NCBI RefSeq assembly: GCF_000022365.1
Contig: NC_012804.1
Span: 1,178,001-1,242,000 of the forward strand
Reading direction: 5' to 3'
Source of the DNA: Thermococcus gammatolerans EJ3
Lineage (GTDB): Archaea; Methanobacteriota_B; Thermococci; Thermococcales; Thermococcaceae
Length of the DNA: 64,000 nucleotides
Under the pieces are notes generated by a model. The model did no database searches and had not been told where the DNA came from. It was given only the letters and a program-made list of their open reading frames with translations. This document shows, one piece after another, positions 4,878-44,718 of the stretch (the stretch's first letter is position 1; every line of letters starts with the position of its first letter). Position numbers and translations under genes: made by a program.

Positions 4878-4906
4878 GTTCGAAGACCCGGCTAAGGATG
4901 TTATAA
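4878..4906 (+). promoter_or_regulatory. Shared promoter/operator block, copy 1 (mscS-archaeosortase operon)
   Basis: The block reads GTTCGAAGA, five bases, then CTAAGGAT, G, TTATAA. The last part is the BRE/TATA, 54 bases before the mscS start. The same block recurs at 10170-10198 with 25 of 29 positions identical, upstream of the secreted protein gene. Such conservation in otherwise unrelated intergenic DNA points to a common regulator binding just upstream of TATA. Confidence 0.7.
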
Positions 4907-4959: not shown

Positions 4960-5769
4960 ATGGAGATGGACAAACCCCTGCCCTACGTGGGGGTGACCCC
5001 CCTGCAGATGGCTACTACGGTAGCGATTCTTGTGATAGGGTGGGTGGTAACAAAGATACTCGTCGGTACCTTCAAGAGGGGATTGAAGAAGACCAAGCTT
5101 CCAGAGCTAGTTGTGGAGTTCCTCAGCAGGTTTCTGAGCGCGCTCCTGTACGTTGCGGTGATCCTTCTCGCGGTCAGCGCCCTGGGAATAGGTGTTGGCT
5201 CGGTCGTTCTGAGCATCTCCGCTGTGATCGGCCTGATCCTCGGCTTTGGAATGCAGGACACTCTAACCAACCTGGCGGCTGGAGTGTGGATAACCGCTCT
5301 GAGACCCTTCGATAAAGGAGACGTTGTCACCGTTGCCGGCCAGACAGGGAAGGTAAACGCCGTTGGGATCATGAGCACCGAGCTCTTAACCCCTGACAAC
5401 ACGCTCATAACGATACCCAACAAGCTCGTCTGGGGAAGCGTCATAACGAACTACACGAGAATGCCAACGAGAAGGGTCAGCGTTGATGTCGGCGTTGCCT
5501 ACGGGACAGATCTTGACAGGGCCATAAAGATCGCGATGGACATTATGAAGGGTCACCCGAAGGTGCTGAACGATCCGGAACCAAGCGTCGTCATAACGGC
5601 CCTCGCGGACTCCTCGATAAACCTCCAGCTCAGGGCGTGGACGAAAACCGAGGACTACTGGGCCGTCAAGGGCGACCTCACTAGGGCAATCTACGAGACC
5701 TACATGAAGGAGGGCATCGAGATACCGTTCCCGCAGATGGACGTGCACATAAAGGAAATGCCGAGGTAA
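4960..5769 (+). CDS. mscS: Small-conductance mechanosensitive ion channel (MscS family)
   Basis: Membrane channel that opens under membrane tension and releases osmolytes. Three hydrophobic segments lie at roughly residues 14-36, 55-77 and 82-105; the third contains the glycine/alanine-rich pore helix and GFGMQDTLTNLAAG, typical of MscS TM3. The cytoplasmic beta domain follows with FDKGDVV and the IPNKLVWGSVI region. At 269 residues it is a standard short MscS. It is the first gene behind the shared promoter block and is separated by only 14 bases from the regulator gene, so it appears to be cotranscribed with the polysaccharide/archaeosortase genes. Confidence 0.9.
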   Translation: MEMDKPLPYVGVTPLQMATTVAILVIGWVVTKILVGTFKRGLKKTKLPELVVEFLSRFLSALLYVAVILLAVSALGIGVGSVVLSISAVIGLILGFGMQDTLTNLAAGVWITALRPFDKGDVVTVAGQTGKVNAVGIMSTELLTPDNTLITIPNKLVWGSVITNYTRMPTRRVSVDVGVAYGTDLDRAIKIAMDIMKGHPKVLNDPEPSVVITALADSSINLQLRAWTKTEDYWAVKGDLTRAIYETYMKEGIEIPFPQMDVHIKEMPR

Positions 5770-5783
5770 AAGGTGACTTTCAA

Positions 5784-7121
5784 ATGGCAGTGGGAAGGGA
5801 TCTCAGGCTGCTTGCGGCCTTTCTCTTTCTCGCCCTTTTATCCCAGCTCCCTCTCCATTCAGCTTCGCCAGGTGAAAAGGCTAAGATACTGGTCGTCTGC
5901 AGCGATCCGGAGGATGTTATGTTCGCCAACACCCTTGGAGCCGAAGGCAACTTCACCGTTGACGTCCTCTATCTCGGCAGGGATCTCCCTGACGACCGTT
6001 CCCTGCTGTCGAATGAGTTATACCTAATCAAATACGATGAAATATGGATCCCAGACCTCAACTCCGAATGGACGTATGGTGGAAGGTTAACCAGAGATGA
6101 AATCGCCGCTCTGGGGGAGTACGTCAAGAGAGGTGGGATCCTAGTTCTGGGACTGAACACGTACACGCAGAGCTGGAGCAGGACTTTTGAAAGGATAACA
6201 GGGAGTCGGCTCATGCGGGTTGAGAAACCAAAAAAGACGAGTGAAGAGTGGGATCTGGTATTCAAGGGTAAAGTTTATCCCTATAATGCCACGTACCAAG
6301 TTGCCATTGTGAGTCCATACCGGGCCCAGGTTCTCGCCCAGTACTCCAACGGTCTTCCAGCGATAACACTTTCCCGCTATGGGCGGGGGGTAGGGGTTCT
6401 AATGACGTTCAACCCCGTTAAGGAGCTCGTCGAGTACAACCCTACTATCATCGACGTTTACGTTTATCTTGCCACCACCGTCCTTTCGGAGCGCTCTGGA
6501 AAGCCTGAAATCCCGCTTTATGAAGCTCTTATTATTAAGCTGGAGAGAACGTTCCTTCATCCTATCTTTCTCGGTGTGCTGATTTTAGTGGTGCTTGAGA
6601 TACTAGCGTATCTGGGCTTTGTTCCCTTCAGTGTTACGGTTATCTCTGCCATCCCCTTCCTGCCCTTCTCAGAGTTTTTACTGAGGAAAGAACCTTATTC
6701 CACAACCCTGGAGACCGTGAGAATGCTCAGGGGCGTAACCCTTACGAACCTAGCAGGTGAAATCGGGAAAACTCCCAGACGACTTAAGTTTCCTCTGGCG
6801 GTTCTCTTTCTCAAAAGGCAGATCAGCCTTATCGACCTTTCTTCCCTTGGTTTCAATGATACTTTGGTAGTTCTCCGGGGTCTTGAGGCGGAGGGTGTTG
6901 CGGCCTGGGCAATTGAAGTTTATCCCAAGATGATGGAGAAGATAGCCAACAACCCGGGAATCGGTGTGATAGACCTCGCACGTCAGGTGAACATGCCGCC
7001 CTACGACGTTCTTCGGCTCCTTAGAGAGCTCTCACGCTATGGGGTGGTTGAGCTCAGGAAGATAGTCGTCGATTACGAGGTCTATCCGATGAGAGCTCTC
7101 CTGAGGTGGTTTGAGGCATGA
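5784..7121 (+). CDS. Membrane-anchored winged-helix regulator 1 with extracytoplasmic domain
   Basis: I do not recognise a named family. The 445-residue protein begins with a signal peptide (hydrophobic residues about 8-25), followed by an extracytoplasmic alpha/beta domain up to about residue 245 that looks like a Rossmann or glutamine-amidotransferase-like fold (AKILVVCSDPEDV, GGILVLGLNTYTQSW). Hydrophobic membrane segments lie at about 258-295. The cytoplasmic tail carries two helix-turn-helix-like units, around TLTNLAGEIGKTPRR and VIDLARQVNMPPYDVLRLLREL. This is the layout of a one-component membrane regulator. A paralogue of the same design is encoded two genes downstream. It overlaps the glycosyltransferase gene by four bases. 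Confidence 0.7.
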   Translation: MAVGRDLRLLAAFLFLALLSQLPLHSASPGEKAKILVVCSDPEDVMFANTLGAEGNFTVDVLYLGRDLPDDRSLLSNELYLIKYDEIWIPDLNSEWTYGGRLTRDEIAALGEYVKRGGILVLGLNTYTQSWSRTFERITGSRLMRVEKPKKTSEEWDLVFKGKVYPYNATYQVAIVSPYRAQVLAQYSNGLPAITLSRYGRGVGVLMTFNPVKELVEYNPTIIDVYVYLATTVLSERSGKPEIPLYEALIIKLERTFLHPIFLGVLILVVLEILAYLGFVPFSVTVISAIPFLPFSEFLLRKEPYSTTLETVRMLRGVTLTNLAGEIGKTPRRLKFPLAVLFLKRQISLIDLSSLGFNDTLVVLRGLEAEGVAAWAIEVYPKMMEKIANNPGIGVIDLARQVNMPPYDVLRLLRELSRYGVVELRKIVVDYEVYPMRALLRWFEA

Positions 7122-8473
7122 GACGAAAACTGGTGTCCTACTTCTCCGCCCTCGTCGTTGCAAGCTACATTGTGTACATTGATTACCTCTTCGTCCAGGA
7201 GGCCGTGTGGAAAGTTATCTCGCTTCTTTTTCAGGGTGTCCCCAGGTATCCGGTCTATGCCTTTGTCAGGTATCTCTTCTACTTGACGGGGGCATTCGTT
7301 ATCTTGATATATGCAGCCTATTTCATTTTCTACCTCCACTTCAGAGAAAACGAGGGGTCAAAGCCAAATCCCCGCTTTTTTCCCAAGGTCTCCTTGGTAA
7401 TACCGGCCCACAACGAAGCCATGAACATCGAGCGTCTAATAGAGAGCATTCAGTATCAGGACTATCCCTTTGAGTGTTACGAGGTTATACTCGTAGACGA
7501 CGGTAGCGTTGATGGCACGCCCGAAATAGCTGAGAGGTATGGAATTAGGGTGATCCGCCACGAGAGAAACATGGGAAAAGCCAAAGCCCTCGAAACCGGG
7601 ATAAAAGCGGCTAAAGGGGACGTTATCATAACACTGGACGCTGATTCTTACTTTGCTGACGGTTCTTCTCTGAGGAACATCGTGGAGAACCTGTTCAGTA
7701 GGCCCTTCGTGGGAGTTTCCACCGGGGCGATTAGAATTGACGTCAGAAGTGGGAAGTTGATAGAGAAGTTTCAAGTAATCGAGTACCTACACTCCTTTGA
7801 AGTTGGGAGAAGAGTCCAAGGCTACCTTGACTGGCTTCTCGTAGTTCCCGGGGCCTTTTCAGCCTTTAAAGGATACCTAATAAAATCCCTTCCCGCGATA
7901 CCTAGGGACACGCTGGCCGAGGACTTTGAACTTGCCATGATAACGTATCGGGCCGGACTGACTTCAAACTTCGAGCCAAAGGCTGCAGTCTACACGGAGC
8001 CAGCAACTTCGTGGAGGGAGCTCTACAGGCAGAGGATAAGGTGGTATTACGGGGGTCTTCAGGTTATGGCCAAGTATCATGACATGATAATGAACAGGAA
8101 ATACGGGGAGAAGGGGCTTTTTCTATTCTTCCACATGATTCTCTTGGAGTACATCCTTCCGGTTCTGCAGGTGTTCGGTATAGTGGCGTTCCCCCTCATA
8201 ATGCTAGTTCATAACTTTCTCGGCCTGGAAATACTCGACATAACGCTGCCCTTCCCCCTTATGATGGCTGTCTTTCTCCTCGTTCTTTTCCTCCAGTATC
8301 TCCCGGGGGTCCTGATGAGCGGCATTGCAATGGCCATTGAAAGAAACCCCAGAACAGCCCTCGGGTATCTCCCCGTGATATTTCTTTACTATCCCATCTA
8401 CAACCCCCTTCTCTCGCTGGCAAAAATAGACGCAATGCTGAGGTTTCTCCGGGGGGTGGTTCAGTCATGGTAA
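7118..8473 (+). CDS. Processive family 2 glycosyltransferase (polysaccharide synthase type)
   Basis: Membrane enzyme that probably polymerises a surface polysaccharide. Two N-terminal membrane segments (about residues 8-30 and 50-75) precede the GT-A domain with the motifs VIPAHNEA, VDDGS (about 127), DADS (about 174), EDFELA and QRIRW (about 305). These are the D, DxD, ED and QxxRW signatures of cellulose, hyaluronan and poly-N-acetylglucosamine synthases. At least three more membrane helices follow. At 451 residues it matches PgaC/IcaA-like synthases. It is tightly coupled to regulators on both sides (4- and 7-base overlaps). The sugar made is unknown. Confidence 0.85.
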   Translation: MRRKLVSYFSALVVASYIVYIDYLFVQEAVWKVISLLFQGVPRYPVYAFVRYLFYLTGAFVILIYAAYFIFYLHFRENEGSKPNPRFFPKVSLVIPAHNEAMNIERLIESIQYQDYPFECYEVILVDDGSVDGTPEIAERYGIRVIRHERNMGKAKALETGIKAAKGDVIITLDADSYFADGSSLRNIVENLFSRPFVGVSTGAIRIDVRSGKLIEKFQVIEYLHSFEVGRRVQGYLDWLLVVPGAFSAFKGYLIKSLPAIPRDTLAEDFELAMITYRAGLTSNFEPKAAVYTEPATSWRELYRQRIRWYYGGLQVMAKYHDMIMNRKYGEKGLFLFFHMILLEYILPVLQVFGIVAFPLIMLVHNFLGLEILDITLPFPLMMAVFLLVLFLQYLPGVLMSGIAMAIERNPRTALGYLPVIFLYYPIYNPLLSLAKIDAMLRFLRGVVQSW

Positions 8474-9627
8474 AAAGGATTATACCCTTCCTTATCCTCC
8501 CCCTGCTCCTCGTTCCAGTGGCTGCAGCCACGGGAGTCGTTTATGTTGCTTCGGATCCAGGGGATGTTCCCCTGTACCATGCCCTTTCCGAGAGAATGGA
8601 CGTAACCCTCTCCCAAAAACCAGAAGGGGACATCATCCTGGCCCTAGATCTAAACTACAACTTCCTCAATGAGAGCGGTAGAGAGAATCTCGTAATGCTC
8701 CTTCGGGAAGCAAAGTCAGGTAAAACCGTTATAATAGGTTTCAACACGCTCAGGAGCCTTGAGCTTGAGGATCCGGAAGCTGTAAGGCTCCTTGGTATTT
8801 CAGTTACGTTCAGAAAGATCGGCATCATCAGAATAACCCCAAAAAATAGATTTGAGTTCACACCCTTCAATTATGATTCTGATGTCTACGGCATAGCGGA
8901 GGTAAATGCCACAGGCGGTAATGTGTTGCTGAAAGCTGAGAACCACACAATTCTTCTCGAAATACCTGTTGGAAAAGGTCGACTCGTGATACTAACCATC
9001 AACCCTGCGGATTATTATCTCAACACCAAAAACCCTGCGATTGTTGATTTTCTCGTGGCCACTGTGGAACACTACACTGGAGGGGAATTTCCAACTGGAA
9101 TTGTAGTTGGTCTGGGTGTCACGGGGGTAATGGCCGCCTATGTCGCCTTCTCCAACAATCCTCAGGCCGAGAAAATAAGGAGGTGGATAAAAACTCTCCC
9201 CCTAATATTCGGCAGGTTCATAACTCCTCCCGAAGACGTCCTCAAGAACAGCACGAGGGCGGCAATATACAACTACATCAAGGCCAAGGGGTACTCCACA
9301 ATAGATGACGTTGCTTCAACGTTTTCCATTTCGAGAACCAACGCCCGCTGGCACCTCAGCGTTCTTAAAAGGGCTCGGCTCTTGGAGGAGACTCCCGTTG
9401 GGAAGGTCATAATTTTCCATCTCCCTGGACAGAAGAACCGCAGAAGGGCTGTACGCGATTTCCTGCTTGAGAATACAACCCGCCGAAAGATATATGATCT
9501 CCTTCAGGCGGGAAAAAGCTTAAGCGAGATCGCCAGAATACTAGGGGTGAGCAAATCCACCATTCACTACAACATCCAGATCCTCAAGGAATACGGGGTG
9601 CTGGGGGAGGAAGATGAAAAGGAATAG
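8467..9627 (+). CDS. Membrane-anchored winged-helix regulator 2 with extracytoplasmic domain
   Basis: Paralogue in architecture of the regulator two genes upstream. Signal peptide at residues about 5-20, then an extracytoplasmic alpha/beta domain (VVYVASDPGDVPL, TVIIGFNTLRSLE) matching the same motifs in regulator 1, a single membrane helix at about 212-230, and two cytoplasmic helix-turn-helix units. The first is DDVASTFSISRTNARWHLS, an ArsR-like winged helix; the second is SEIARILGVSKSTIHYNI. The start has GGGGGGTGG upstream and overlaps the glycosyltransferase stop. It probably senses a cell-surface signal and controls the shared promoter block, which is inference from layout. Confidence 0.72.
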   Translation: MVKRIIPFLILPLLLVPVAAATGVVYVASDPGDVPLYHALSERMDVTLSQKPEGDIILALDLNYNFLNESGRENLVMLLREAKSGKTVIIGFNTLRSLELEDPEAVRLLGISVTFRKIGIIRITPKNRFEFTPFNYDSDVYGIAEVNATGGNVLLKAENHTILLEIPVGKGRLVILTINPADYYLNTKNPAIVDFLVATVEHYTGGEFPTGIVVGLGVTGVMAAYVAFSNNPQAEKIRRWIKTLPLIFGRFITPPEDVLKNSTRAAIYNYIKAKGYSTIDDVASTFSISRTNARWHLSVLKRARLLEETPVGKVIIFHLPGQKNRRRAVRDFLLENTTRRKIYDLLQAGKSLSEIARILGVSKSTIHYNIQILKEYGVLGEEDEKE

Positions 9628-10114
9628 CCTCGCCTTTGGGATACTGCAACTATTGGGATACCTTCTCGTATTCTCCATCATGATACTCGTGATAGGGGCT
9701 AAATTCGGCGATCCGCTGGTGAAGATGGAGGCAAAGAACATCCATGTCATGCTTAGAATCCTCCGAGTTCCGAACATCCTTCTAGGAAACATGGTATACT
9801 TACCGGAGGAAAGGCTCTCCTTCGAGATAACTTGGCAGTGTAGTGGGATGTTCAGCATAAGCTTGTACACTGTCGTTTACTTAACCTTCCCGAGGATACG
9901 CAGGAATCTTTGGGAATGGTTCTTTGGAGTTTCAGTTCTTTACGTAGTTAACTTCTTCCGCGTCCTTACCTCCATACTCCTCTATCACCACATGGGAGAG
10001 GAGGTATTCTCACTCTTCCACTATATCCTCGGGCCCGCGATGATGTTTGGGGTGGTTGTTCTTCTGCTGGGAGATCTCCTTGTGAAGAGCCTGAAGGAGA
10101 GACGGCAAAATTGA
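9614..10114 (+). CDS. Archaeosortase (exosortase/archaeosortase family)
   Basis: Integral membrane cysteine transpeptidase of the exosortase/archaeosortase family, which processes C-terminal sorting tails of exported proteins. The three family residues are present in order: Cys76 in QCSG, Arg116 in NFFRV and His136 in LFHYILGP, each at a membrane helix. About four to five hydrophobic segments are visible in 166 residues, shorter than many bacterial exosortases. The ATG has GGGGGAGGAAG before it and overlaps regulator 2 by 14 bases. The neighbourhood, a polysaccharide synthase plus a secreted protein with a VPEFP tail, fits a sorting role. I cannot assign the subfamily. Confidence 0.85.
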   Translation: MKRNSLAFGILQLLGYLLVFSIMILVIGAKFGDPLVKMEAKNIHVMLRILRVPNILLGNMVYLPEERLSFEITWQCSGMFSISLYTVVYLTFPRIRRNLWEWFFGVSVLYVVNFFRVLTSILLYHHMGEEVFSLFHYILGPAMMFGVVVLLLGDLLVKSLKERRQN

Positions 10115-10169
10115 GTAGGAAGTAGATGATTCTGGGGAGAAACGCTTATAATACCGAAAAAATCAGGAC

Positions 10170-10198
10170 GTTCGAAGAAACGTCTAAGGATATTATAA
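10170..10198 (+). promoter_or_regulatory. Shared promoter/operator block, copy 2 (secreted protein gene)
   Basis: GTTCGAAGA, five bases, CTAAGGAT, A, TTATAA, matching copy 1 at 4878-4906 in 25 of 29 positions. The left part also belongs to an inverted repeat, GACGTT (10167-10172) with AACGTC (10179-10184). The TATA ends 38 bases before the GTG start of the secreted protein, leaving room for a short leader with GGGGGTGGTGGG. Confidence 0.7.
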
Positions 10199-10235
10199 AT
10201 GGTTTTCCTCTTATCTGTGTGGGGGTGGTGGGATA

Positions 10236-10949
10236 GTGAGGGGCCTTAAATGGCTCATCATTGGGATGTCTCTCATCCTTCTAATACTCGGCCTACCTAA
10301 TGCGATGGCCGATTCCTCCTCTTTCTCCGATAGTATACTACACGTCTGGAGCCATGATAAGAGGAGCTCGTACACCGAGATACACGTGGTGGGTAAGAAA
10401 CTCGGAAGCAACGACACCTTCGCAGTTGAGCAGACCGTGCTCGCCAGCAACTACAGCGGACGTGAGGGAGTCGCTCTCCTCGAAGTGCAGGTGACAGACA
10501 GCGGAAAAACCGCATGGTATTCTGTTTACTGGTATGGGGAGGACAGGGTATACATAAACGGACCTGGTATGAGCATTAGCGTTGCCCTCGACATGAGCGT
10601 CCCGCACACGTACAGAATCGAGGTAACAAGGAAGCGTGTGGGCTTCTATGTGGATGGCTCAAATAAGATGATCATCGGCATCAAGAACATAACGGAAATC
10701 CAGCAGGTCAACACTGGAAGGTGGGACAAGGGGAGCACCTACGACCTCTACATAGACAACATAAAGGAGTACTGGAACGGCGAACTCATTGCGAGTGAGG
10801 ACTTTGATGACGACAAGGATGACTTTTACACCAGTGATGTGCTTAGGGGGAGTGGCGACAGCGGGGAAGAGGTAATCCCAAGCGAAGGAGTGCCTGAGTT
10901 TCCGTTCCTTGAGCCAATCATCAACGAACTCCTGAAAGTTGTGGGGTAG
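10236..10949 (+). CDS. Secreted beta-rich protein with PEF-like C-terminal motif, candidate archaeosortase substrate
   Basis: A 237-residue exported protein that I do not recognise. Signal peptide at residues about 5-25 (LIIGMSLILLILG, ending near AMADS), then a beta-rich middle resembling a LamG/concanavalin-like sandwich (WYSVYWYGED, RIEVTRKRVGFYVDG, YIDNIKEYW). After an acidic linker the tail reads GVPEFPFLEP and ends 15 residues after the PEF. This resembles the PEF-CTERM sorting motif, but the usual membrane helix and basic end are absent. It starts at GTG behind GGTGGTGGG and has its own copy of the promoter block of the archaeosortase operon, so it is the natural partner of that operon. 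Confidence 0.7.
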   Translation: MRGLKWLIIGMSLILLILGLPNAMADSSSFSDSILHVWSHDKRSSYTEIHVVGKKLGSNDTFAVEQTVLASNYSGREGVALLEVQVTDSGKTAWYSVYWYGEDRVYINGPGMSISVALDMSVPHTYRIEVTRKRVGFYVDGSNKMIIGIKNITEIQQVNTGRWDKGSTYDLYIDNIKEYWNGELIASEDFDDDKDDFYTSDVLRGSGDSGEEVIPSEGVPEFPFLEPIINELLKVVG

Positions 10950-10988
10950 GGAGATTCTAGCTCAAATCAGAGGGCTCTAATTATGAAG

Positions 10989-11010
10989 CTTCGAAGCCTC
11001 TCTAAGGAGC
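10989..11010 (+). promoter_or_regulatory. Degenerate third copy of the shared promoter block
   Basis: CTTCGAAG at 10989-10996 and CTAAGGAGC at 11002-11010 repeat the two conserved halves of the blocks at 4878 and 10170, with the spacing one base shorter and no TATAA. No gene starts downstream on this strand. It may be a decayed promoter or chance. Confidence 0.3.
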
Positions 11011-39296: not shown

Positions 39297-40013
39297 ATGA
39301 CTCTTCTCGCGTTCAAGGGTCAGCCCCTTGAGGAACACGTGAAGGCTATGTTGCAAGCATGGAATGAAGTAAAGGGCAAATACATACCTTCCATAATCAG
39401 GGCGATGAAAGCTTACGGCGTCGAGCTAAGCAGAGAAAAAGTGGATAGGCTTATGAGAGCGCTTATAATTCTTCATGACTCCGGAAAGGGGGCGAGGATT
39501 TACCAGGATTATCTTAAAGACGGGGAGAAGCTTGGAGGTTTCAGGCACGAGCTGGTGAGTGCGTACTATGCTCTGAAAATCCTTTCACAGCTCTTCGAAG
39601 AGAGAACGGCGTTCGTTGGCTCACTTGTTGTTATGCTCCACCACGAGCCGATACTCATGGGGCAGATTGCCAACTTTGACAGGGACTCCCTGTCTGCAGA
39701 AGTGACCCTGGACAAGCTGAGAAACTTTGATGGAGTGGTCTCAGAACTGGACGAGTTCCTGAGGAAAAGTTTCAAGAAGTACCTTGGTGCGGACGTTGAA
39801 GTTCCCAACGCGGAGACGGGGGAAGTCGTCAGGACTGTGGTGGAGCTTAGCGTGAAGGCACGCCACCTTCCCGACGCTGGAAAGCTTCGCTTAATCGTTG
39901 GGGCTCTGCTCATTCCGCTCGTCCTATGTGACTACAAAGGCGCTGAGGATAGAGAAGGGGAGACCCCAAAGTTCGCTGAAGTTCTTGAGGCGGAGTGGAT
40001 GGGGGTGGTATGA
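39297..40013 (+). CDS. cas3'': CRISPR HD nuclease Cas3''
   Basis: Single-strand DNA nuclease partner of Cas3'. HD-domain ligands are visible as ILHDSGKGARIY, FRHELVSAYYAL, MLHHEP and the final aspartate in LCDYKGA, with the first histidine in EEHVKAM. 238 residues. The ATG begins immediately after the cas3' stop. A GTG start for cas8a directly follows its stop. Confidence 0.92.
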   Translation: MTLLAFKGQPLEEHVKAMLQAWNEVKGKYIPSIIRAMKAYGVELSREKVDRLMRALIILHDSGKGARIYQDYLKDGEKLGGFRHELVSAYYALKILSQLFEERTAFVGSLVVMLHHEPILMGQIANFDRDSLSAEVTLDKLRNFDGVVSELDEFLRKSFKKYLGADVEVPNAETGEVVRTVVELSVKARHLPDAGKLRLIVGALLIPLVLCDYKGAEDREGETPKFAEVLEAEWMGVV

Positions 40014-41060
40014 GTGGAGACTTACCAAACCCCTAGCGTTGATGGGATATTCGACCTTTACGTGGCATACGGCTATGTTGAAGCCCTTGTGCGGGGCGGG
40101 GCGAAAGAGGTAACCCTTATTCCAAGGGGAACTTTGGAAGGAGGTTATTACAGCGTTAGAGGCGACGGGGACTTTAGGAGTGGACTAATTGGTGCGCTTA
40201 AGGAGATGCTTTCGCTACACTACGCTTTCGGTAACTACCGTTATTCCCGTGAGGGTGTCAAAGTTATAAGCGACGCCGACTTCAGCGCGGGGGCAAATGT
40301 GAATAATACGTATTGGGATAGCGTTCCATCGCGATTGAGGGATGTCCGTGAGAAGTTAAAGGAAGGGAAAAAGCTTGGGGGAAAGTATCCTCTCCCCATA
40401 ACTCTTATGCCCTCTGCTGGCAAATTCATACCAAAACACATGGGGGTTCAAGGAGGGAATCCCCTCAAAATAGATCCTCTAAACTATGCTCTTGCCTGGG
40501 TGGGATTCCACTATTACACTCCTTACATTAGGTATACTAAGGGCACCAGAACGTGGGTGCACATCTATCAGGTCGCGCCCCAAGAAGAACTAAATCTCTT
40601 TGAAGTGCTCGCCCTCAAGGACCTGAAGAAACACTTTCCCCACTACTACGAGGCTAATATGAGCTATCTCTCAAATCCCCGTCTTGCGCTGTTCTACCAC
40701 ATTCTCCATACTGAAAGTCTCGGCGCCGTTGAAGAAGTAACGAGAAAGTTCCTTCTTGTAAGGTCGTATACTCTCGAGAGAGATGGTAACAACCAGGCCA
40801 TACGCTCCTATGGTGAGGAAGATCTTGGGAAACTGATGGACTTTCTCTGGGAACTGAAAAAGAGGAGCACCTACCACACGGTTAGGTTCTTTGACGCGCT
40901 CCTCAGAAAGGAAAGTGAAGCCGTTTTGGCCGTTATAGATGCCGTCATTAATGACAGGCCAGAGGGGCTTTACCAAGGACTCAGGATTGCAAAGAGAGCT
41001 GGTATAACTCCCCCTCAAAGTGTCGTTGAAGGCATGGAGGCATTCATCGATGAGACTTAA
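40014..41060 (+). CDS. cas8a: Type I-A large subunit Cas8a (Csa4/Csx9-like)
   Basis: Large subunit that in type I-A Cascade recognises the PAM and recruits Cas3. No enzymatic motif is visible in the 348-residue chain. The assignment rests on length, position after cas3'' and general likeness to Csa4/Csx9 (PKHMGVQGGNPLKIDPLNYALAWVGFHYYTPYIRY is a typical aromatic segment, quoted here only by its ends PKHMG and YIRY at about 141-175). It starts at GTG 40014 directly behind the cas3'' TGA, with GGGGGTGG upstream. It overlaps the second cas6-like gene by 11 bases. Confidence 0.75.
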   Translation: METYQTPSVDGIFDLYVAYGYVEALVRGGAKEVTLIPRGTLEGGYYSVRGDGDFRSGLIGALKEMLSLHYAFGNYRYSREGVKVISDADFSAGANVNNTYWDSVPSRLRDVREKLKEGKKLGGKYPLPITLMPSAGKFIPKHMGVQGGNPLKIDPLNYALAWVGFHYYTPYIRYTKGTRTWVHIYQVAPQEELNLFEVLALKDLKKHFPHYYEANMSYLSNPRLALFYHILHTESLGAVEEVTRKFLLVRSYTLERDGNNQAIRSYGEEDLGKLMDFLWELKKRSTYHTVRFFDALLRKESEAVLAVIDAVINDRPEGLYQGLRIAKRAGITPPQSVVEGMEAFIDET

Positions 41061-41823
41061 ACTCCTGCTCCACTTTGAAGAGCCCTTCCTCATCCCCTAC
41101 AACTACCCTCGCCCGCTCTACTTATTCCTAATCCATGCGATAAAGCTGGGAGACCCAATGATAGCGAAACGCATACACGAGAACAAAAAGGACATCAAGT
41201 TCGTTGCCTCTAAGTTGTTCCCGGTGAGGAGTGCCGAAAAAACCGATAAAGGCCTGCTTGTAAAGTCCGGAAAGGTCGAGCTCCTCGTGGGCTCCCCTGC
41301 GTGGCCAGTTCTGGAGGCCCTTGCCAACGGACTCGCCATCGGCATCGGCCAGCTTCATATACTCCGGAAACGCCTTCTTGATGTGGAAGTTAGACCTGTT
41401 GAAACCCCTAAGCGCCTCTCCGGACGGAAGCTTAAAACTCTCTCACCGGTCAGCGTTTACCACAACAATCCTCCCAACGGTTTCAGACAGTGGGACCTCT
41501 CGCCGGTTGGCCAGCCAAACAGCCCCTTCGAGAATGAGCCAGCCGTATGGAAGGAACTGGTCTTTAGAAACCTTCGCGAGAAGTATTTCATGGTTTACGG
41601 GGAGTCTTTTGAGGGAGATTTCGAGATTGAGGTTTTCCCGGAAAGCGCGAGGAGCAAGATGTTCAGGATTAAACGCGATGACAGAACCGGAAGGCACACT
41701 CAGGTTCGCGCCTGGGAGTTCTACTTCAGAATGCAGGGTGATGAGGAGTTGCTCCGCGTTGCCCGGGACACTGGACTCGGAATGAGGAATGCTCACGGTT
41801 TTGGGATGATTGGGATGGTCTGA
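41050..41823 (+). CDS. cas6: Second Cas6-family protein with altered catalytic positions
   Basis: Homologue of the Cas6 at 33460: both share LSGRK..TLSP near residue 130 and the C-terminal glycine-rich loop, here TGLGMRNAHGFGMIGMV. At the positions equivalent to the Tyr29-His44-Lys50 triad this copy has His29, Glu44 (next to His43) and Lys50. It may therefore cut differently, or only bind repeat RNA and serve as a Cascade subunit. 257 residues from the ATG at 41050 inside the end of cas8a. It abuts cas4. Confidence 0.85.
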   Translation: MRLKLLLHFEEPFLIPYNYPRPLYLFLIHAIKLGDPMIAKRIHENKKDIKFVASKLFPVRSAEKTDKGLLVKSGKVELLVGSPAWPVLEALANGLAIGIGQLHILRKRLLDVEVRPVETPKRLSGRKLKTLSPVSVYHNNPPNGFRQWDLSPVGQPNSPFENEPAVWKELVFRNLREKYFMVYGESFEGDFEIEVFPESARSKMFRIKRDDRTGRHTQVRAWEFYFRMQGDEELLRVARDTGLGMRNAHGFGMIGMV

Positions 41824-42513
41824 ATGAACCTCCCTAAGGAAATCGAATCTTTCAACGAGAGAATTAGGAACGCCATAAACGGCAACCACAGGCCCGAGAG
41901 GAGGATATGGGTAACCTCTCTAAGCTACTGCCTCAGGAAGACCGCCCTCGATATCTACCTCAACGCGTACAGCCCCTCACGCAACTGGGAGGCCAGGATA
42001 GGCTCCGCCCTGCACGGCTGGCTGGCGGACGTAGTGGGGAGCGCGGAGTTCGAAGTTCCGGTTGAATATCAGATAAGAGACGGGTGGAAGCTCGTTGGAA
42101 AGGCCGAGGCCGTTAAGGGCCCCTACGTTCTTGAGTTCAAGTTCAAGGGGTTTGAGGGCAACGGGGAAGGGATTCCGCGAAAAAATTACGACCTTGAGCA
42201 CGCGGAGCCATCGCGGGAGTGGGTCGAGCAGATTAACGCCTACATGGGAATGCTCGGAAAGGAGAAGGGATACATCTACATCTTCGATAGAAACGGGCTT
42301 GACTTCCGGGTGTTTCCTGTCGAGTTTGATGAGACTCTCTTCAGGAGGTTCCTGAGGAGGGCCGAAAGGGTCATTGAGGCCGTAGAGGAGCTGGAAAGCG
42401 GGAAGTTCCCGCGCTGGATATCGACGGTCGGGAGAAAGGACTGGGTGTGCAACCGTTGTCCTTACCGGCCAATTTGCGCCGAGATTGATAGGGAGGAGCT
42501 AAAGGTCAGATGA
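41824..42513 (+). CDS. cas4: CRISPR adaptation nuclease Cas4
   Basis: RecB-like nuclease that trims prespacers and selects for the PAM. The iron-sulfur cysteines are Cys36 in SYCLRK and the C-terminal CNRCPYRPIC. The nuclease core shows the histidine in GSALHGWLAD, VGKAEAVKG with the acidic residue, and EFKFK. 229 residues. The ATG follows the cas6-like stop directly. It is the last rightward gene of the operon and overlaps cas2, on the other strand, by eight bases. Assignment to Cas4 rather than Csa1 is by motif arrangement. Confidence 0.88.
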   Translation: MNLPKEIESFNERIRNAINGNHRPERRIWVTSLSYCLRKTALDIYLNAYSPSRNWEARIGSALHGWLADVVGSAEFEVPVEYQIRDGWKLVGKAEAVKGPYVLEFKFKGFEGNGEGIPRKNYDLEHAEPSREWVEQINAYMGMLGKEKGYIYIFDRNGLDFRVFPVEFDETLFRRFLRRAERVIEAVEELESGKFPRWISTVGRKDWVCNRCPYRPICAEIDREELKVR

Positions 42514-42763
42514 TGTCCTCCATCGGGTTCTTTTCCGTTCCGAGGACGTCGCGGAGGGGCTGTGAGCGAAGGCGGTAGATTACAACGGAGTCCTCATTTT
42601 CGTCTATTATCTCCCTCAGTCCGGCCTTAATCCTCTCGTACTCGGCCCTCGTGACTTCTCCCTCGAAGACGCTGTTCTGGACCCAGTGGAGGTGCCGGCG
42701 GAGGAACTTCTTGACGTGGTTGACGCGCCTGACGTTGACGTCGTAGACAACGATGATGTACAT
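42506..42763 (-). CDS. cas2: CRISPR adaptation protein Cas2
   Basis: Scaffold of the spacer integrase. The 85-residue ferredoxin-like chain begins MYIIVVYDVNVRRVNHVKKFL with the conserved aspartate, then HWVQNSVFEGEVTRAEYERI and the C-terminal VVIYRLRS strand, all typical of archaeal Cas2. The ATG at 42763 has GGTGGTATT before it; the longer frame to 42817 is not needed. It is transcribed towards the cas operon and away from the array. No cas1 accompanies it. Confidence 0.93.
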   Translation of the reverse strand: MYIIVVYDVNVRRVNHVKKFLRRHLHWVQNSVFEGEVTRAEYERIKAGLREIIDENEDSVVIYRLRSQPLRDVLGTEKNPMEDII

Positions 42764-43277
42764 AATACCACCATAGGGGTCAGGAAGTTCTGGATTTAAC
42801 CTTTTCTGACATATCACGCTAGAAGTTCTTCAATTTTCAAAAAAGGCTGTTTGAGAGGAGGAAAATTGAAAATCTTCCCTCGAATACGGCTGGAAATCAA
42901 TTTTTGTTGTTTTAAAATTGTTACTTATTGTTACATATTCCCGCTTGAACTGTAACGAATTTTCTTCGAGAATTGAAACGGAGCTCGTCAATCCCCCAGA
43001 TAATGCCATAACCTGTGGAAAATGATGTTATTTTAGATTCAACATCTTTAATCGTCGATTTTGGAGTTTAACGGCATCAAACGGATTTGCATTTCTCAAA
43101 CCGTTTTACCAACATTATAGGAAGGATTCTTCTGGCCACCATTTTGGAAATCCAGAGATGCACAACGACTCCAATTGGAGGGGATCTGTGCCTTCTTTTC
43201 CAGAAGGTTTCCAGAAAAGCTTAAATATATGAGAACGTACAACCCCCTGTTGGGCAAACGGACGGAAAATCCGCCCT
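42764..43277 (+). other. CRISPR leader region
   Basis: 514 bases without a gene, strongly AT-rich with homopolymer runs, directly before the first repeat. A BRE/TATA AAAAGCTTAAATATATG at 43214-43230 would start the pre-crRNA about 20-25 bases before the array, reading towards it. A short inverted repeat CGGA-AAA-TCCG (43263-43273) abuts the first repeat. I searched this stretch for a decayed cas1 in all frames and saw none. Confidence 0.75.
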
Positions 43278-44718
43278 GTTGCAATAAGACTCTAGGAGAA
43301 TTGAAAGGGAGATTGGTCAACTCTGGCTTGACTGGAGGGCTGGTGTTGCAATAAGACTCTAGGAGAATTGAAAGCGCGTAAATGAGGGCCGGGTAATTCG
43401 CGAGATAAGCGTTGCAATAAGACTCTAGGAGAATTGAAAGATACTCAAAGCCGGCCCCAACAGCCCCAAAATAATCAGTTGCAATAAGACTCTAGGAGAA
43501 TTGAAAGCTGGATCTCCCACACGGCCTGGGCCTTCTCAACCTGCGTTGCAATAAGACTCTAGGAGAATTGAAAGTAGTTCTTAACGAAACTCCGCACCCT
43601 CCTCCTAACTCGTTGCAATAAGACTCTAGGAGAATTGAAAGTTGGGGTGCTCTACCTCGCTAGGACTGGCAAAAAGAGGGTTGCAATAAGACTCTAGGAG
43701 AATTGAAAGCTCATTGAATCCCTCTCAACCTCAAGGTACTCCTTCGGTTGCAATAAGACTCTAGGAGAATTGAAAGGACTTTGGTCGGGGCCCGCAAAGA
43801 GTATCCGAACCTCTCAAGTTGCAATAAGACTCTAGGAGAATTGAAAGTTAAGTGTTCATGAATTGATACTGGAAGTCGAAACACGTTGCAATAAGACTCT
43901 AGGAGAATTGAAAGAAGCGTTGTTATTTGCCTCATGCCGATCCCCCCATGTTGCAATAAGACTCTAGGAGAATTGAAAGTTTGTCGGGGACTACTTCGTA
44001 ATGGCACACAACGGCTGTTGCAATAAGACTCTAGGAGAATTGAAAGAACTCGTAACTGAAGATGTTATAGTTGCTTCTATCGTGTTGCAATAAGACTCTA
44101 GGAGAATTGAAAGGAGTTGGTCGTGTGGGTTGGGGTTATCAGTGCATGCTTGTTGCAATAAGACTCTAGGAGAATTGAAAGTTCTTCTATGACGTATTTA
44201 TTGATTTTACTGATTATTGGTTGCAATAAGACTCTAGGAGAATTGAAAGGAGCGAGGTTGGGCATCTCCTCAGCGACGGGAGTGGGTTGCAATAAGACTC
44301 TAGGAGAATTGAAAGAAGAGTGCACAAAAGAATACATTTCAACTAAAGAACGTTGCAATAAGACTCTAGGAGAATTGAAAGAACAAAAAACGTGTTTGAC
44401 TTCCCGGCCTTTACTTTTGTTGCAATAAGACTCTAGGAGAATTGAAAGCCTAATGGCCCCGGTGGTCGGGGCCGCCGACCAAAGCAGTTGCAATAAGACT
44501 CTAGGAGAATTGAAAGACGGGAGCACGGCGGAGATCGAGTACACGGTCAAGGGTTGCAATAAGACTCTAGGAGAATTGAAAGGGTTGAACGTCACGAACT
44601 GGCTCAGGCCTTCGTACAGGTTGCAATAAGACTCTAGGAGAATTGAAAGCGGAACAATAATCGGCGAAAAACCACTTTATCTTATCGAGTTGCAATAAGA
44701 CTCAAAAAGAATCGAAAG
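43278..44718 (+). CRISPR. CRISPR array, 22 repeats of 30 bp
   Basis: The repeat begins GTTGCAATAAGACTCTAGG and ends AGAATTGAAAG; its last eight bases ATTGAAAG are the typical Thermococcales crRNA 5' tag. Repeats start at 43278, 43345, 43411, 43478, 43545, 43612, 43680, 43747, 43818, 43885, 43950, 44017, 44084, 44152, 44220, 44286, 44352, 44419, 44487, 44553, 44620 and 44689, with 21 spacers of 35-41 bases. The first 21 are identical; the last (44689-44718) has several changes in its middle, as expected at the leader-distal end. Transcription is rightward from the promoter at 43214. I recognised no spacer as matching this window. Confidence 0.98.

Follow-up and report, generated by a model that had tools for sequence, protein, structure and literature searches.

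Which protein does an archaeosortase of the orphan family ArtF act on, and with which other genes does it work? This question is raised by a 64,000-nt stretch of the Thermococcus gammatolerans EJ3 genome (the window, whose numbering we use for the locus), in which six genes lie in a row: mscS, for a mechanosensitive channel; two genes for membrane proteins with predicted winged-helix domains, MWH1 and MWH2, on either side of a glycosyltransferase gene, GT2; artF; and a gene for a secreted protein with a conserved C-terminal tail (the tail protein). All six reading frames are present with the overlaps that an earlier sequence-only reading had claimed for them. We consider it rather probable that the locus is an archaeal counterpart of the bacterial XrtG system, that is, a module for polysaccharide synthesis and for the sorting of one substrate under shared promoter control.

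A conserved gene set around ArtF

The EJ3 genome is complete (2,045,438 bp; PMC2718504), and we addressed genome-wide questions on it with pattern and profile searches. Our comparison set consisted of 94 Thermococcales genomes, widened to 115 genomes of the phylum for MWH1 and MWH2; genomes and loci are labeled G and L, respectively. ArtF of EJ3 matches the NCBI family TIGR04293 over its full length (positions 1 to 166 of 166) with 361.4 bits, the cut-off being 150, and the family was found above this cut-off in nine genomes of the set, from two genera. The residues Cys76, Arg116, and His136, already pointed out in the sequence-only reading, are invariant in the nine orthologues and fit the Cys, the Arg, and the third residue (His or Arg) of exosortases and archaeosortases, which suggests that catalysis has been kept. 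ArtF itself is already known as a named NCBI family; what is new here is a candidate substrate, an operon, and a promoter element. Our literature search, which was thin on subscription papers, so that an earlier mention is possible, found no paper naming both ArtF and archaeosortase. A related-locus search of genome contigs returned no locus with a single ArtF protein as the query and only two with the ArtF alignment.

We found MWH1, GT2, MWH2, artF, and the tail gene all together in the same nine Thermococcales genomes, in a fixed order, interrupted only in L016 and L021 (genome G026), where a 3-gene insert separates artF from the tail gene. No genome searched outside these nine has ArtF, MWH2, or the full-length tail protein, and MWH2 is likewise confined to exactly these nine among the 115 genomes of the phylum. 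Orthologues of GT2 and MWH1 are found in the same nine genomes and in G076, MWH1 thus being present in 10 of the 115. Loss of the gene order in relatives, which would have undone the sequence-only reading, is therefore not what the Thermococcales show, and the conserved unit brings an archaeosortase together with a GT2 synthase, a secreted protein, and two membrane proteins that have predicted helix-turn-helix (HTH) domains. From mscS onward, the genes of EJ3 are joined by a 14-nt gap and by overlaps of 4, 7, and 14 nt, and artF is separated from the tail gene by 121 nt. The compactness first ascribed to the row thus holds for the first five genes and not for the tail gene, which stands apart with its own promoter element.

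The gene list has to be extended by a gene that EJ3 lacks. In eight of the nine ArtF genomes, the tail gene is followed on its 3' side by a gene for a membrane protein of about 810 to 830 aa with a PF10131 domain. A profile search gave >1200 bits for this orthologue in the same eight genomes and in no other, and did not find it in EJ3, whose locus is therefore a shortened version of the module. PF10131 was dropped as a marker of the module by itself, as distant members (≤420 bits) occur in 17 other Thermococcales genomes. The PF10131 proteins also contain a weak PF08532-like stretch, a domain that we meet again in MWH1.

GT2 has PgaC/IcaA as its best NCBIfam match and shares a QxxRW-type motif with these synthases, but its score (161.6 bits) lies below the equivalog cut-off of 422.3. 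The motifs DDG, DAD, TLAEDF, and QR(I/V/L)RW (among its forms QRIRW and QRVRW) were found in all eight orthologues compared, and hydropathy peaks flank the catalytic part on both sides. By its motifs and membrane helices, GT2 is a synthase of the processive family 2 type, its processivity being predicted.

The tail protein and its C terminus

We then analyzed the sequences of the nine tail proteins. Their ectodomains are only 26 to 82% identical, but they all carry the motif VPEFPFL at the C terminus, followed by 12 to 15 residues of amphipathic character. VPEFPFL is the longest run of invariant columns (seven) in the alignment, and a run of seven was reached in 10 of 20,000 column shuffles. 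In the AlphaFold2 model (mean pLDDT 82), the ectodomain folds as a laminin-G/concanavalin-A-like jelly roll, with Foldseek matches to sialidase lectin domains, PL7 lyases, GH16 enzymes, and neurexin LNS domains, which suggests that it binds sugar; a C-terminal helix is modeled at 223-236.

The distribution of the tail follows that of ArtF. Full-length matches to the tail protein are restricted to the ArtF genomes, and homologues of the ectodomain occur in four genomes without ArtF, where the match stops at about position 206 of 242. There, the proteins end in PFFG, a transmembrane segment, and RR or RW (L082 to L084) or in PIPG, a transmembrane segment, and a basic end (L081). No other convincing protein with a C-terminal PEFPF was found in the ArtF genomes, as the remaining matches were out of frame or not C-terminal in a convincing secreted protein, and the tail protein is presumed to be the sole substrate of ArtF.

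L021 provides a natural domain exchange. Its ectodomain groups with those of the window, L014, and L015 (support 100/100; 51 to 54% identity, versus 26 to 31% to the others), whereas its ArtF, MWH1, MWH2, and GT2 group with those of L018 to L020 (100/99 or 100/100). The leader of its tail protein is nearest to those of L016 and L017, and its tail is nearest to those of L016 to L020. By these sequence comparisons, the surface domain of L021 has been exchanged while leader and tail were retained, the pattern to be expected of a tail that works with the resident machinery.

The sequence-only reading called this C terminus a PEF tail. The PEF-CTERM domain is the signal of another archaeosortase, ArtC (PMC5244752), and the signal of ArtA is tripartite (PMC9263693). 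The ArtF module resembles the ArtA/PGF-CTERM and ArtC/PEF-CTERM systems in the superfamily of its enzyme and in a short PxF-type motif near the C terminus of the substrate (PMC9263693, PMC5244752); it differs from them in that its tail has neither a transmembrane segment nor a basic cluster. Only the letters PEF are thus shared, and we do not regard the tail as a PEF-CTERM signal for this reason. It has no NCBIfam match, and the EJ3 enzyme scores 23.8 bits against the ArtC cut-off of 100.

A second, larger archaeosortase of EJ3 (279 aa; L001 / L022:8694-9533, genome 13801-14469) lies beside a gene for a GH57 protein whose C terminus consists of LFFG, a transmembrane segment, and KRH. It has no NCBIfam equivalog above cut-off. 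In G014, G017, and G048, several proteins have similar tails of PFFG, a transmembrane segment, and RR, and this enzyme looks like part of a separate, canonical Thermococcales sorting system.

The closest known gene set is that of XrtG in Firmicutes, a link that we made through the GT2 matches. The XrtG cluster of Lachnospira eligens comprises a Firmicu-CTERM protein, xrtG, a TIGR03111 GT2, a hypothetical protein, a 6-carboxytetrahydropterin synthase, and a PF10131 protein, and the XrtG system described for L. plantarum combines a CTERM protein and Xrt with two glycosyltransferases (PMC12854382). A tblastn search with the PF10131 protein against plasmids gave no XrtG cluster. Both systems pair a small exosortase with an adjacent GT2 and add a single sorting substrate and a membrane protein with a PF10131 domain; this set is found in eight of the nine ArtF genomes and is incomplete in EJ3. 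In spite of this likeness, ArtF reaches 26.1 bits against the TIGR03110 (XrtG) cut-off of 102.75, and GT2 reaches 112 bits against the TIGR03111 cut-off of 363.95. Moreover, XrtG substrates have the transmembrane segment and basic end that the tail lacks, and the annotation of the two clusters that we viewed lists no membrane protein with a winged helix. With the same kinds of genes but scores below both family cut-offs, the ArtF module probably functions in the manner of an XrtG system without being a member of it. The sequence-only reading was not aware of a described archaeal equivalent with this gene order and built-in regulators; ArtF was already named and XrtG has the same gene content, but the gene order with predicted HTH membrane proteins is indeed a conserved unit.

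TABLE 1 Features of the ArtF locus of T. gammatolerans EJ3 (coordinates in the window)
Feature	Coordinates	Strand	Basis or remark
Element + TATA, operon head (GTTCGAAGACCCGGCTAAGGATGTTATAA)	4878-4906	+	Upstream of mscS
MscS-type mechanosensitive channel	4960-5769	+	PF00924, PF21082
MWH1	5784-7121	+	AlphaFold2, Foldseek, weak PF08532, hydropathy
GT2, predicted membrane-bound processive-type family 2 glycosyltransferase	7118-8473	+	PF00535/PF13632/PF13641; PgaC/IcaA best NCBIfam match
MWH2	8467-9627	+	PF12840, hydropathy
ArtF archaeosortase (TIGR04293)	9614-10114	+	Full-length profile match
Element + TATA, tail gene (GTTCGAAGAAACGTCTAAGGATATTATAA)	10170-10198	+	Second copy, upstream of tail gene
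Tail protein, secreted	10236-10949	+	AlphaFold2, Foldseek, invariant C-terminal tail

A shared promoter element and two membrane proteins that may sense

In EJ3, an element, GTTCGAAGNNCTGNCTAA, abuts the TATA boxes of both the operon head and the tail gene. The pattern common to the two upstream regions is GTTCGAAG-N2-CTG-N-CTAA, directly 5' of the TATA box (4901-4906 and 10193-10198, respectively), and the two copies are identical at 24 of 29 bases. No other strict match occurs in the EJ3 genome. Two other sites lie within coding frames and were taken as chance: a third site in the EJ3 genome (TTCGAAGAAATAGCTAAGGA, genome 721,722, L114) and a match at 42048 of the window (frame 41824-42513). 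Relatives keep the element ahead of mscS or of MWH1. We aligned 17 promoter sites from nine genomes by eye, and in leave-one-genome-out scans these promoters were the best matches in their loci; the MWH1 site of L015 was weak (15.5), and high scores were also obtained for the 3-gene cluster in L016 and L021. Across the 94 genomes, the strict pattern gave 22 matches, against 3 for a reversed control, and all but 2 of the 22 lie ahead of mscS, of MWH1, of the tail gene, or of a cluster of three genes, one of which encodes an ODP-family protein.

This cluster encodes proteins of about 105 aa and 268 aa (the latter without a Pfam match) and an ODP-family protein with a metallo-beta-lactamase fold, and it has the same promoter element; it is the insert of L021 (6266-8172) and L016 (10225-12125) and stands alone in G069 (L110:4696-6588). 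In the window, an imperfect element with a spacer of 5 instead of 6 nt (TTCGAAGCCTCTCTAAGGA) is found at 10987-11005, just 3' of the tail gene and near the place of the PF10131 gene in relatives; it has no obvious TATA box.

The membrane proteins with predicted HTH domains are candidates for reading this element, and the sequence-only reading described them as built-in regulators. MWH2 begins with a leader, followed by an extracytoplasmic domain, a single transmembrane segment at 210-228, and two ArsR-like HTH domains (PF12840, HTH_20; 70.7 bits, two stretches), and thus combines a DNA-binding domain with a transmembrane region. MWH1 has a leader, an extracytoplasmic domain, one or more transmembrane segments, and two C-terminal winged-helix-like units, which appear at 303-435 in the AlphaFold2 model; by sequence, the winged helix is weak (HTH_24, 14.9 bits, below cut-off), and its two hydrophobic stretches are compatible with a C terminus on either side of the membrane. 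The MWH1 ectodomain is glutamine-amidotransferase-like, of the GH42 trimerization type (Foldseek E value of ~1e-8; PF08532 just under cut-off). Transmembrane transcription regulators such as ArnR of Sulfolobus unite a DNA-binding domain and a transmembrane region in a single protein (PMC10269533, PMC6396743). Judged from predicted domains, MWH2 and, less surely, MWH1 would fit this definition (PMC10269533). Their likeness to the known regulators lies in the predicted combination of these two parts in one chain; the amidotransferase-like ectodomain of MWH1 and the C-terminal position of the HTH domains set them apart, and DNA binding is predicted here.

The element nevertheless has a life outside the module: it precedes mscS in G023 and both mscS and the 3-gene cluster in G069, and neither genome has MWH1, MWH2, or ArtF. 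MWH1 and MWH2 are therefore not the only possible readers, and we dropped MWH2 as the sole one; a regulatory role for the two proteins remains plausible in this weaker form. It also follows that the module joined a wider mscS regulon. We give only slightly less than an even chance to the alternative that the two proteins do not regulate the locus at all, and that a general Thermococcales factor reads the GTTCGAAG element and controls mscS and the module, for example under osmotic or envelope stress. MWH1 and MWH2 would then control something else or serve as assembly sensors. G023 and G069 speak for such a factor; the two clear HTH domains of MWH2 and its exact co-occurrence with ArtF speak against it, as does G076, which has only MWH1 and GT2 and in which no element was found before mscS. 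This alternative concerns only regulation and is compatible with the sorting mechanism that we propose.

Proposed mechanism and what weighs against it

We propose that GT2 makes a polysaccharide and exports it through its own membrane domain and that, in most relatives, the multipass PF10131 protein, whose gene is missing in EJ3, completes or modifies this polymer. The tail protein, exported by means of its leader, would fold extracellularly into a laminin-G-like domain that probably binds sugar, and would display VPEFPFL and the amphipathic tail at the outer face of the membrane. ArtF, through Cys76, Arg116, and His136, would recognize and cut the tail and anchor the protein by transfer onto a lipid or glycolipid. 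The mscS-headed operon and the tail gene would be switched jointly through the GTTCGAAG-N2-CTG-N-CTAA element beside the TATA box, and MWH1 and MWH2 might sense the exterior with their extracytoplasmic domains and pass the signal on by way of their winged helices in the cytoplasm.

Besides the element in genomes without the module, several observations weigh against this proposal. Unlike the tripartite ArtA signal, the tail lacks a transmembrane segment (best hydropathy over 19 residues, 0.57 to 0.89) and a basic cluster (0 or 1 K/R among the last 8 residues). The pathway may be incomplete in EJ3, since its genome lacks the PF10131 protein. In G019 (L017), the reading frames of GT2 (L017:9629-10995) and of the PF10131 protein (L017:4688-7128) are split, suggesting decay or sequencing errors. 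Finally, G076 has the MWH1-GT2 pair downstream of mscS (L105:7946-10671) without MWH2, ArtF, or the tail protein, so that GT2 can be independent of the sorting arm; MWH1-GT2 therefore looks like one subunit of the module and MWH2-ArtF-tail protein like a second. The incomplete assembly of G081 contains a second, very similar MWH1-GT2 pair on another contig (L106:2858-4755), which may reflect strain mixing.

The unusual tail leaves room for a different role. It could be a docking helix that is never cut and that holds the lectin-like protein on ArtF, GT2, or the membrane surface, with ArtF perhaps only a binding partner. This fits the lack of a transmembrane segment and basic cluster, the modeled C-terminal helix, and the canonical tripartite anchors of homologues elsewhere; we nevertheless regard it as unlikely, considering the invariant triad, which suggests retained catalysis, and a tail that is only ever found together with ArtF. 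We think it improbable that ArtF acts on another substrate or on a glycan, with the tail protein merely a co-regulated, polysaccharide-binding neighbor, for although the tail gene has its own element, is parted from artF by the 3-gene insert in two loci, and GT2 also occurs without ArtF, the strict co-occurrence of tail and ArtF, the invariant motif, and the ectodomain exchange with the tail kept all argue against it. It is equally improbable that mscS is the integral sensor of a six-gene unit, as the sequence-only reading held: the gene adjoins the module in five of eight assessable genomes (14 nt ahead of MWH1 in EJ3) and shares the element, but it lies outside the neighborhood in L015, L016, and L017, is unlinked to the module in G019, where the same element precedes it, and keeps the element in G023 and G069, two genomes that lack the module. 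We therefore regard mscS as a co-regulated neighbor and not a core gene.

Returning to sorting by ArtF, we tentatively suggest, at somewhat less than even odds, that ArtF recognizes a substrate without the usual transmembrane anchor via VPEFPFL and the amphipathic tail. The tail would then represent a new kind of C-terminal sorting signal, in a one-substrate module with an interchangeable surface domain that is tied through its promoters to a mechanosensitive-channel regulon. As a separate observation on the window, cas-like reading frames and repeated SFNSPRVLLQ translations at about 40000-44600 suggest a CRISPR locus.

With this work, the orphan family ArtF gains a candidate substrate, a gene set, and promoter control, and sorting in archaea would be linked to polysaccharide synthesis by the same gene set as in the bacterial XrtG system. 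The module offers a pair of one enzyme and one substrate, and its noncanonical tail poses a testable question: can an archaeosortase act on a substrate that has no transmembrane segment?

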